Below are positions 17,351 through 20,716 of a stretch of 26,793 nt of DNA, one piece after another. Below the pieces are notes generated by a model. The model did not search any database and was not told the origin of the DNA. It saw nothing but the letters and a program-made list of their open reading frames with translations. A program made the translations under genes and the position numbers. The DNA is from a virus: IMG/VR virus record IMGVR_UViG_3300021440_000102, positions 1 through 26,793 of that record. One strand, 5' to 3'. The first letter of the stretch is position 1. Each line of letters starts with the position of its first letter.

Positions 17351-17514
17351 TTAATTGGTCGCTTGGCAAGTAAGAGCTGAATACGAAGAAGTTGCTCTTT
17401 GGCGGCGGCTTTATTCTTCTCAATGAGAGCAGAATTTCCGGCAAAGAGTTGAGAAGATTCTTGAGCTTTTTTGGAAGCTTCAAGGAGAAGGGATAAGGGA
17501 GGCGGTTTGGACAT
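17347..17514 (-). CDS. Tiny gene between terminase subunits (55 aa)
   Basis: Start chosen at ATG 17514 (MSKPPPLSLLLEASKKAQES), because CAGGAG lies six bases upstream; a longer version from a TTG at 17598 has no ribosome site and would overlap terS much more. It overlaps the end of the small-terminase gene by 35 bases in another frame and the start of terL by 4 bases (ATGA), so it should be translationally coupled. The product is an amphipathic helix of about 45 residues rich in Lys, Ala and Leu. No family was recognised. It may be a packaging accessory; the tight nesting argues that it is real. Confidence 0.6.
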   Translation of the reverse strand: MSKPPPLSLLLEASKKAQESSQLFAGNSALIEKNKAAAKEQLLRIQLLLAKRPIK

Positions 17515-18055
17515 TTTGAGCTCCTGGAGAGTTTTCAAGAAGAGTAGATTTAGACTTTGCAAGAAGTCCGGCCATAGATCCTGATTGTACTGTGACAAGA
17601 TCCTGATTTCCGGCGCGAATTACTTGATTGTTTGAATTGAGTTCGAGTGCACGTTCAGCTGAAAAATTTTGAATAATTTGTACAGGCATGATAAGAGGGA
17701 TAACAGTTCGCTGACCTTGAATTGTTTCTGGAGCGGATGCACCACGACGTTTTGCTCCGTTGATAATTGCGATTGCTTTGAGAACCTCGAAAGGTTTGAT
17801 CATGAATGGAATCATATCAGCTAGTTTTTCTAGCAACATGTCTTCCATCTTATCGTATTTTAAGTCTCGTTCGTTATGTGCTGAAAGATTTTTAAAGCGC
17901 AGTTCTGCTACTTTTGCGGAGATTTCAGGATCTGAAATGAGTTGGGAAATTCGGGATGCAGTTACTCCGACCGCCGAAGCAACCATTTCTGGTGCAACTC
18001 CTTGCCCAAGAAGAGAAATTGCACGATCTTCTGTGGAGGTGGTGGTGGAGGTCAT
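17480..18055 (-). CDS. terS: Terminase small subunit-like, HTH DNA-binding protein (191 aa)
   Basis: First gene of the late block, directly before terL. A helix-turn-helix is visible at about residues 15-45 (VAPEMVASAVGVTASRISQ), in the way small terminase subunits recognise the packaging site. Then come a helical region (KYDKMEDMLLEKLADMIP, about 65-85) for oligomerisation and a flexible Gln/Ser/Asn-rich C-terminus. The start MTSTTTSTEDRAISLLGQGV at 18055 follows AGGAATCTCAGG. It would bind phage DNA and hand it to TerL; the packaging site is not identified. Called from HTH, size and place. Confidence 0.8.
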   Translation of the reverse strand: MTSTTTSTEDRAISLLGQGVAPEMVASAVGVTASRISQLISDPEISAKVAELRFKNLSAHNERDLKYDKMEDMLLEKLADMIPFMIKPFEVLKAIAIINGAKRRGASAPETIQGQRTVIPLIMPVQIIQNFSAERALELNSNNQVIRAGNQDLVTVQSGSMAGLLAKSKSTLLENSPGAQNVQTASLIPSP

Positions 18056-18287
18056 CCTGAGATTCCTAAAAGATTTCTTGATGTTCCTAGTATAGAAGAG
18101 GAAGAAGTGAAGAGCATGTGGGGACAGGTGATTTGAAAAAATTTAGGAAAATTTGTGAGGTGAAATAGGATGGCAGCCAACGAAAAACCCAAAAAAGGTC
18201 CATCCCCCTCCCATGTAAGTAAGTACTAACTAACTTAGATACAGGGGAGAAAGTGAATGCTCACTATGATTGGAGGATGGATGAGAA

Positions 18288-18305
18288 AGTTAGTGGGGGC
18301 TAACT
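18288..18305. repeat. Hairpin AGTTAG-TGGGGG-CTAACT
   Basis: A perfect 6-bp inverted repeat around a 6-base loop. Seven of its bases (AAGTTAG, 18287-18293) can also pair with CTAACTT at 18230-18236, so two alternative folds are possible in a leader RNA. On the minus strand this would lie in the untranslated leader of the terminase message. Confidence 0.45.
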
Positions 18306-18333
18306 AACGTGAGTTCGGATGAGCAGGGGCGAG

Positions 18334-18378
18334 TTATCCACAAGTTATACACTAGCAAGTTTGATGCCATGTGGATAA
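18334..18378. other. Cluster of DnaA boxes, candidate replication origin element
   Basis: TTATCCACA (18334-18342) and TGTGGATAA (18370-18378) are two perfect 9-mers of the DnaA-box consensus TTATnCACA in opposite orientation. They are the core of an 11-bp inverted repeat (AGTTATCCACA at 18332-18342, TGTGGATAACT at 18370-18380). TTATACACT at 18345-18353 matches 8 of 9. Host DnaA could bind here. Because the boxes also flank the late-facing sigma-54-like promoter, they could equally regulate transcription. No strongly AT-rich unwinding element is obvious beside them. Confidence 0.6.
18354..18369 (-). promoter_or_regulatory. Sigma-54-like promoter facing the late genes
   Basis: On the minus strand the sequence reads TGGCAT-CAAAC-TTGCT, matching the sigma-54 -24/-12 consensus TGGCAC-N5-TTGCW at all fixed positions but one (T for the last C of TGGCAC), with exact spacing. 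A start near 18343 would feed the terminase message. It lies between two DnaA boxes. The match is weaker than its plus-strand partner. Confidence 0.45.
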
Positions 18379-18386
18379 CTAGGGAA

Positions 18387-18446
18387 AGTGACGAGAATTG
18401 TCAGGAAGTGACGGATTTGGGAAGAGAGTGACGAGAATGGTCAGTG
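18387..18446. repeat. Three 20-bp-spaced repeats, activator sites or origin iterons
   Basis: AGTGACG begins at 18387, 18407 and 18427, an exact 20-bp period, about two helical turns. The outer two units match over 18 bases with one difference (AGTGACGAGAATTGTCAG and AGTGACGAGAATGGTCAG) and each has the dyad TGAC-N7-GTCA (18389-18403, 18429-18443). The middle copy keeps only the first 8 bases, and a degenerate fourth may lie near 18449. They are centred about 115 bp upstream of the predicted plus-strand sigma-54 start, where enhancer-binding activators normally bind. They could also be iterons for a replication initiator. Confidence 0.7.
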
Positions 18447-18502
18447 TATGTAACGAATTGTGAGGGAAATTTCGGATGGTGGAAAATTGGGGGATTTTTA
18501 GG

Positions 18503-18519
18503 TTGGCACACCGATTGCT
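18503..18519 (+). promoter_or_regulatory. Sigma-54 (-24/-12) promoter facing the early genes
   Basis: TTGGCACACCGATTGCT matches the sigma-54 consensus YTGGCAC-N5-TTGCW in every fixed position and in spacing. The predicted start is near 18530, upstream of the 43-aa gene. As a sigma-70 promoter it would be poor: TTGGCA followed by TAGTAT has only 12 bp spacing. Such promoters need an ATP-driven activator bound upstream, and the 20-bp repeats are in the right place. Activity is inferred. Confidence 0.65.
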
Positions 18520-18568
18520 CTAGTATTAGTGCGGGTTGCCCGTGGATGCTAAAGAAAGTGAGAAGAGA

Positions 18569-18700
18569 ATGGACTACAGGTTTTTGGATTGTGTGAGAGA
18601 GAACATTCAGGTTTTCGGTCTTCATTGGACTGTGCGCTACTATTCCAAGCGACTGAATCAATGGGAGCTCCGATTCTGGCTGACTCAGGCGATCAAGTGA
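18569..18700 (+). CDS. Small early protein, unknown (43 aa)
   Basis: A short frame from ATG 18569 to TGA 18700, first gene after the sigma-54-like promoter. It starts MDYRFLDCVRENIQVFGLHW and continues with YYSKRLNQWELRFWLTQAIK: rich in aromatic and basic residues with three Trp, unlike a random frame. GAGAAGAG lies just before the ATG, a fair ribosome site. A GTG start at 18542 would add nine residues but sits very near the predicted transcription start. The next gene's ribosome site overlaps this stop, which suggests coupling. Function unknown; first-expressed phage genes often act on the host. Confidence 0.55.
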   Translation: MDYRFLDCVRENIQVFGLHWTVRYYSKRLNQWELRFWLTQAIK

Positions 18701-18707
18701 GGACAAG

Positions 18708-18878
18708 ATGATTCAACCAATAGAACTCAGAATCGAGCATAACATTCGCTCCTACGTGGTTCGCGCAGTCTTCGGATTGATGCACACCGAAATGTTTCCT
18801 CAAACATTCGCATCATTCAAGCAAGCAAACGACTGGTGCAAGGAAAACTATCCGAATGTTCCTAGGATTCGTGGCTAG
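18708..18878 (+). CDS. Small early protein, unknown (56 aa)
   Basis: ATG 18708 to TAG 18878, with GTGAGGA (overlapping the stop of the 43-aa gene) as ribosome site. It starts MIQPIELRIEHNIRSYVVRA and ends in KENYPNVPRIRG. The middle has FASFKQANDWCKENY, which resembles the short amphipathic pattern of many small phage proteins of about 60 residues that begin with a beta strand and end with a helix. No known family. The pair of small genes and the 220-aa gene form a short operon ended by the hairpin at 19631-19655. Confidence 0.62.
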   Translation: MIQPIELRIEHNIRSYVVRAVFGLMHTEMFPQTFASFKQANDWCKENYPNVPRIRG

Positions 18879-18952: not shown

Positions 18953-19615
18953 ATGTCCGTCATTTCCAATCGCCATCAGGTCAATAAGTTCGTTGCTGGC
19001 AAGTCTCAACCCCTTGCAAATCAACGTCTCGCAAAGGTTGGTTATAAGGCGGGGAAAAAGACTGAGAAGAAATTTGATTCTATTTGTGTCAGTGTCCCGG
19101 AACTTGATCCGAAAGAGGTGATCACTGACTTCACTCCTTGGTTTCCGCATCTCAAGACTCTGATGGAGAATGCACAAGATGGGATCATCAAGAGTCTGTA
19201 CGAATCCTCGAATGGTCAACTGACCACGGTAGGCGATGATGAGATTGGATATTCCAGTATCCTTGCATATCTGGAAGCTGAAGCGAATGGCGGACGAATG
19301 ACCAAAGAATTCCTCGTTGCATGGTTCAATCAGGAATTGCAAGACAATCTCACTGTTGTGATTGCGGAAAAATTGGGATTCGAGGAACTGAATGAAGAGC
19401 AAGAGAAGACGGTAAGTAAGCATGTCAATGCATACAGGGATTTGATCTCTTCCCTTGCTGGTGGAAAAACTCTCCTGCAAGAGAATCAAGTGAAGAGTCT
19501 GCAAAAGGTTCTGGAACTCACGAGTAATGAGGATGATGAGACTGTGAAGAAGCTGAATCTCCGACTCGAAAACATGCTGAAGAAGGAAAAGATTGAAGAT
19601 TTGCTGGAACTCTGA
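18953..19615 (+). CDS. Hypothetical early protein with C-terminal DLLEL (220 aa)
   Basis: Start at ATG 18953 (MSVISNRHQVNKFVAGKSQP), because CAGGAGATTCTATT sits before it; an in-frame start 16 codons earlier lies in the inverted repeat and has no such site. The first 40 residues are basic (KVGYKAGKKTEKK). The middle is helical with PWFPHLKTLMENAQDGIIK and RMTKEFLVAWFNQELQDN. The last 60 residues look like a coiled helix rich in Lys/Glu ending KIEDLLEL. No enzyme motif was recognised. The basic start and acidic end could suit a DNA- or protein-binding factor. Its C-terminal DLLEL also ends the SprT-like protein 1.1 kb downstream. Confidence 0.8.
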   Translation: MSVISNRHQVNKFVAGKSQPLANQRLAKVGYKAGKKTEKKFDSICVSVPELDPKEVITDFTPWFPHLKTLMENAQDGIIKSLYESSNGQLTTVGDDEIGYSSILAYLEAEANGGRMTKEFLVAWFNQELQDNLTVVIAEKLGFEELNEEQEKTVSKHVNAYRDLISSLAGGKTLLQENQVKSLQKVLELTSNEDDETVKKLNLRLENMLKKEKIEDLLEL

Positions 19616-20257: not shown

Positions 20258-20716
20258 ATGTCCGATTCTAATGATCCTCTTGAATTAGGTATTTCATCAG
20301 TACCTAAATTCATCCCTTCAATGATCTCTAAAGATCATATGGGAAAGATCTTCCAAGATGTGCCGGAAGAGGTTAAGAAGTGGGCAAGAGATTTGAGGGA
20401 TCATCAAGGATGGAGAATTTATTCAGTTAAGCAAACCCGTGGAAGATGTTATCCTAGAGAAAAAGTGATAACAATTCCAGTATGGGCAATTGAGAGAAAA
20501 GATATTACCTTCAAAATCTGGTATATCTCTCACGAACTTGCTCATGCATACGAGGGTTGTTTAGATTCTCATGGCCCAAGATTCATGGAATGGTTGAAAA
20601 GGATCTGTCCTGCGAATTGTATTGAGCATGAGCTAGGATATAAACCTAGAAATGCGGCCGCCGCAGGAATAGGAGAAAAGAAAAAGAATAAATGGGACGA
20701 TCTGCTCGAACTTTAA
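20258..20716 (+). CDS. SprT-like zinc metalloprotease (152 aa)
   Basis: Residues 92-96 are the zinc-binding HELAH with the catalytic Glu93, and a third ligand follows in SHGPRFMEWL (His105), the layout of SprT/WLM-type metallopeptidases. Upstream, VITIPVWAIERKDITFKIWY provides the beta strand usual before the active helix. No zinc ribbon of Cys pairs is seen after the domain, so it is a minimal form. Cellular relatives (Spartan, Wss1) cut proteins crosslinked to DNA; phage copies are mostly uncharacterised. The protein ends KNKWDDLLEL, sharing DLLEL with the 220-aa protein. The domain call is secure, the substrate unknown. Confidence 0.85.
   Translation: MSDSNDPLELGISSVPKFIPSMISKDHMGKIFQDVPEEVKKWARDLRDHQGWRIYSVKQTRGRCYPREKVITIPVWAIERKDITFKIWYISHELAHAYEGCLDSHGPRFMEWLKRICPANCIEHELGYKPRNAAAAGIGEKKKNKWDDLLEL

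Follow-up and report, generated by a model that had tools for sequence, protein, structure and literature searches.

Development of the Pseudomonas aeruginosa phage YuA (Yuavirus), a known precedent for a sigma-54-dependent phage, was reported to be strictly dependent on host sigma-54 (PMC5053324). As at the locus described here, -24/-12 promoters are found in YuA, where the genome record lists them as active; those of YuA, however, lie within structural genes and all on one strand, and neither a divergent early/late pair nor an enhancer of the pilA type has been described for this phage. The sigma-54 dependence of YuA could also reflect the loss of pili in rpoN mutants. In bacteria, PilR and sigma-54 activate the pilin gene pilA, and PilR becomes hyperactive upon pilin depletion (PMC6058289). 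Like the phage locus, bacterial pilA promoters controlled by PilS-PilR and sigma-54 contain TGAC-N7-GTCA palindromes, often in tandem at 20-22 bp, which are located 45-75 bp before a TGGCAYR-N4-TTGCW element. Published sigma-54 enhancers are usually found about 70-150 bp upstream (PMC3844500).

The DNA analyzed here, in the following called the window, is a virus fragment of 26.8 kb (26,793 nucleotides, IMG/VR record IMGVR_UViG_3300021440_000102). Based on TerL and the capsid protein, it is a distant relative of the Fredfastierviridae phages PaMx41, PaP2 and 119X, of Polaromonas phage Tiera and of Aeromonas phage P5. It shares with them the gene order, 33-38% identity in TerL and 37-39% identity in the major capsid protein, whereas their equivalent intergenic region lacks a sigma-54 site. 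When membership in the Fredfastierviridae was checked, the homology was limited to distant similarity of TerL and the major capsid protein, and the switch region had no DNA match. The link to a host via genome contigs consisted of two MAG contigs and was weak, with doubtful binning. A leftward block starts with a gene in the small-terminase position and includes the genes for TerL, the portal protein and the major capsid protein; small ORFs and genes for an SprT-like protein and a Dda-like helicase make up the rightward block. The switch region lies between the small-terminase start at 18055 (minus strand) and the first rightward ORF at 18569 (plus strand), with further rightward ORFs following it (Table 1). 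Profile searches with the first large early protein gave no family match, and an early gene product used as a single-sequence query for relatives returned zero matches. The C-terminal peptide DLLEL is common to this protein and the SprT-like protein (20258-20716), and most relatives of the former have a similar C-terminal ending; perhaps it is a common partner-binding tail.

Table 1. Positions of sequence features in the switch region of the window and of dense site arrays in unrelated phage contigs (numbered within each contig).
Feature	Position	Strand	Sequence	Remarks
First late gene, small-terminase position	17480-18055	-		
Perfect DnaA box	18334-18342	+	TTATCCACA
Near-perfect DnaA box	18345-18353	+	TTATACACT	abuts late-facing site
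Late-facing sigma-54-type -24/-12 element	18354-18369	-	TGGCATCAAACTTGCT	predicted start ~18343
Perfect DnaA box	18370-18378	-	TTATCCACA	abuts late-facing site
Enhancer-like palindrome 1	18389-18403		TGACGAGAATTGTCA	centre ~-134 of early start, ~-53 of late start
Degenerate enhancer-like unit	18409-18423			TGAC half only; in 20-bp register with palindromes 1 and 2
Enhancer-like palindrome 2	18429-18443		TGACGAGAATGGTCA	centre ~-94 of early start, ~-93 of late start
Further degenerate unit	18450-18464		GTAACGAATTGTGAG	weak
Early-facing sigma-54-type -24/-12 element	18504-18519	+	TGGCACACCGATTGCT	GG 18505-18506, GC 18517-18518; predicted start ~18530
First small early ORF	18569-18700	+	GAGAAGAGA (RBS-like)	43 aa; ~40 nt past predicted early start
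Second small early ORF	18708-18878	+		56 aa
First large early gene	18953-19615	+		220 aa; in nearly all relatives
Dense array, L134 (G032)	2376-2555
Dense array, L135 (G027)	1656-1885
Dense array, L136 (G036)	1412-1879
Dense array, L137 (G024)	1474-1657

TGGCAY-N5-TTGCW occurs without mismatch just twice in the window, and both sites are located in the switch region. They point away from each other, and in each of them the GG at -24 and the GC at -12 are separated by ten bases. The initial annotation had proposed this divergent sigma-54-type pair in one intergenic region, and both its positions and its placement proved correct; however, the motif it had counted as ten bases (TGGCAC plus TTGCT) has 11 fixed bases, and the chance expectation is therefore below the figure it gave. 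When up to two mismatches were allowed, 42 matches were present in the window compared to about 27 expected from shuffles, 40 of the 42 carrying one or two mismatches. Agreement with sigma-54 promoters extended to positions outside the selection, namely the extended consensus YTGGCAYR-N4-TTGCW and an AT-rich melting region. Used as a positive control, phage YuA showed, over 50 kb of its sequence, no match to TGGCAY-N5-TTGCW with at most one mismatch at its annotated -24/-12 promoters.

A wide search yielded 80 TerL relatives, which were reduced to 50 non-redundant loci for the site counts; shuffled words served as control for site and motif counts. The early-facing site was present at the same place as an exact match in 17 of the 50 loci (shuffled words 0.00) and with at most one mismatch in 25 (control 0.78). 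The signal was restricted to the 5-base spacer, which accounted for 25 loci compared to 0-5 for other spacers. Upstream of TerL, 54 sites with at most one mismatch, nearly all early-facing, were counted vs. five for the reversed pattern. Columns that had not been used for selection also fitted the sigma-54 consensus, with Y before TGG in 23 of 26 sites, R after TGGCAY in all 26, and AT-rich sequence downstream. An unbiased gapped-word search returned TGGC-N8-TGCT among its top signals, together with the conserved block preceding the terminase gene. The scan of the phage and its relatives envisaged in the initial annotation thus recovered an early-facing site that about half of the relatives retain with unchanged position, spacing and orientation despite otherwise diverged intergenic DNA, but the other half lacks it; its distribution on the TerL tree is patchy and needs at least 10-14 changes. 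In L066, a near-consensus sigma-70 promoter (TTGTCA-16-TATAAT) was found about 1074 bp upstream of TerL in place of the sigma-54 site of its relatives, which suggests promoter exchange.

Several other motifs are present in this intergenic region. The intergenic stretch best conserved across the lineage, located at 18118-18211 of the window just before the small-terminase gene, consists of a G-run, CCTTTTTT and then CCTAT...CTAAA.TTTTT and is possibly a cos or pac site. A TetR-operator-like palindrome (TTAGTNAGTACTNACTAA) occurs at 18216-18233 of the window and in L057, L067, L068, L098 and L103; in total, 11 of the 62 loci contain it, compared to 0-1 in the control. A Fur-box-like palindrome (AATGAGAATCATTCTCATT) was found in 29 of the 62 TerL-relative loci, e.g., L120, L083 and L096, compared to a median of 1 and a maximum of 9 for shuffled words, and was not found in the window.

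Sigma-54 control of both gene blocks, as claimed initially, is well supported for the early side, where a conserved site fits the consensus and has palindromes at enhancer distance, and less so for the late side. The exact late-facing site occurs in three of the 50 loci (the window, L002/L003 and L060), which still exceeds the 0.03 expected by chance. The divergent pair recurs in L002 and L003 (TerL 81%), the closest relatives whose intergenic DNA has diverged, with both sites reading TGGCAC-N5-TTGCT. It is possible, though less likely than not, that the late-facing site does not function as a promoter and that only the early promoter depends on sigma-54. The rarity of the site is consistent with this alternative, as are the palindromes located downstream of it in L003 and L060 and the DnaA boxes flanking it in the window, whereas three exact sites against the chance level argue for a function.

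Between its two sigma-54-type sites, the window contains repeats of the palindrome TGAC-N7-GTCA, with two good copies 40 bp apart and a degenerate unit in the middle. These palindromes and the perfect DnaA boxes had been missed in the initial annotation. With respect to the predicted early start, the palindromes of the window lie at the distance of published sigma-54 enhancers, and all 28 palindromes of the lineage lie between -160 and -40, with centres at -157 to -43 and zero copies farther upstream within 400 bp. Exact palindromes were confined to loci bearing the sigma-54 site (12/25 vs. 0/25, p = 4e-5). Some relatives carry NtrC-like boxes in place of the palindrome, as in NtrC-sigma-54 promoters of the glnA type; these are two TGCACTAATTTGGTGCA boxes at -185/-216 in L054 and boxes at -141/-181 in L058, L059 and L067. 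The activator thus appears to differ across the lineage. The window contains no NtrC box (TGCAC-N7-GTGCA) within one mismatch, while this box was found in L054 and L067.

A sigma-54 activator (PF00158) above the cut-off was found neither in the window nor in the relatives searched, which included several of 42-46 kb, so that the activator would have to be supplied by the host. Two weak sub-threshold matches to PF00158 occurred in the records of L006 and L007, both without a sigma-54 site. For a T7-type RNA polymerase, 15 relatives gave no match in what is a weak test, since the control gave no signal either.

The phage-derived layout of palindrome and sigma-54 site was run against 369 genomes of one class and, as a looser pattern, against 398 genomes of the phylum, two samples that overlap in part and whose genomes are not established hosts of this phage. 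The layout matched three times in the first set and eight times in the second, the reversed pattern not at all. All three matches of the first set and six of the eight in the second, nine of 11 in total, are immediately followed by a gene with the type IV pilin signature GFTLIELMIVVAIIGILAA. The other two look like chance matches, one being inside a coding region and the other GC-rich. Enhancer and sigma-54 layout are thus common to the phage and to host pilin promoters. The phage locus differs from bacterial pilA in that early genes rather than a pilin gene are located behind the promoter, and in that the enhancer is common to a divergent second promoter. In one bacterial genome (L159), the layout precedes a non-pilin gene, and the enhancer may therefore serve further genes.

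Since PilR acts with sigma-54 at pilA, it is the best candidate for the activator at the palindromes of the window. The published hallmarks of PilR sites are GTCT elements (PMC6058289), with which the phage half-site is compatible, nothing beyond. Nutrition or stress as the input of the switch, which the initial annotation had put forward, is not suggested by the window, because its enhancer matches the one that precedes type IV pilin genes in hosts and NtrC boxes occur in a few relatives only; the likely input would be pilus regulation.

From these comparisons, we propose that the early promoter of this phage, and apparently of many relatives, probably imitates a host pilA promoter and is under the control of sigma-54 and PilR from the host. 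Host RNA polymerase containing sigma-54 would bind to the early-facing element. This sigma-54 promoter of the early operon would be opened by an enhancer-binding protein of the host that occupies the tandem TGAC-N7-GTCA palindromes (18389-18443); the most likely candidate is PilR, from the PilS-PilR system. In the window and a few relatives, a second, divergent sigma-54 site may let this enhancer act on the late operon as well. For phage early genes, one would expect the strongest constitutive host promoters. An activator-dependent early promoter is demanding for a lytic phage, and this is a point against the reading with sigma-54 and PilR.

A sigma-54 promoter served by another enhancer-binding protein, such as NtrC or an unknown one, with nothing but a common half-site behind the likeness to pilA, appears unlikely. 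It would account for the NtrC-type boxes in L054, L058, L059 and L067 (NtrC consensus, PMC4987338), for the palindrome layout before a non-pilin gene in L159, and for the fact that GlrR half-sites are also TGTC/GACA, with different spacing, but it fits poorly with the lack of an NtrC box in the window and with the predominance of pilin genes among the layout matches.

Even less probable is that the palindromes are sites for a phage repressor or a replication initiator at an origin with DnaA boxes, the sigma-54 sites being weakly used. Two perfect DnaA boxes and repeats spaced by 20 bp do resemble an origin, and a peak of the cumulative GC skew lies no more than about 2.5 kb away; however, DnaA boxes are present in just 5-6 of the 62 loci, the palindromes co-occur with the sigma-54 site at a fixed distance from it, and host pilin promoters have the same pair of elements. 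Clusters of perfect DnaA boxes were observed in the same intergenic region of the window (18334-18378), L058/L059, L067 (six boxes) and L112 (five boxes).

Chance, or sigma-70 promoters with TTGGCA as -35 region, can be given hardly any weight: TTGGCA is similar to a -35 box, and some relatives without the site, e.g., L066, show sigma-70-like promoters there, but the window has none near 18100-18600, the exact GG-N10-GC conserved with a variable N5 fits sigma-70 poorly, and spacing and missing -10 boxes rule out the sigma-70 reading of TTGGCA.

A scan of IMG/VR for divergent pairs identified 29 contigs belonging to several unrelated phage lineages, compared to none for the reversed pattern. 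In one group (L027/L034), two TGAC-N7-GTCA palindromes are located between the two sites. Unrelated phage contigs also contained dense arrays, in which six to nine exact TGGCAY-N5-TTGCW sites in both orientations lie in one region and frequently form convergent pairs separated by 2-8 nt. Such arrays are hard to explain as simple promoters and might be a sigma-54 decoy or sites of another protein.

Mimicry of pilA and PilR control by a phage appears to be new; in the open literature, with most subscription papers outside this scope, we found no description of early phage genes under a promoter with the architecture of a pilin promoter. If the early switch is a copy of the pilus switch, phage development would be tied to pilus production by the host. 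As PilR is hyperactive when pilin is depleted, a phage engaging pili could, speculatively, switch on its own early promoter. An extension that we consider possible but doubtful is that pilus engagement itself is sensed: binding to type IV pili would lower membrane pilin, PilS would activate PilR and the pilA-like early promoter would be turned on, confining infection to cells with active pili, while relatives would swap the enhancer (PilR, NtrC) according to their host. The repeated occurrence in this lineage of an activator-dependent sigma-54 promoter of the pilin type suggests that infection is gated on a single host-surface regulator. Should the pilus serve as the receptor too, its display and the expression of viral genes would be under one switch, and a host turning PilR off would block both. 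The layout represents a sequence signature by which such phages may be found in metagenomes and piliated hosts predicted for them.
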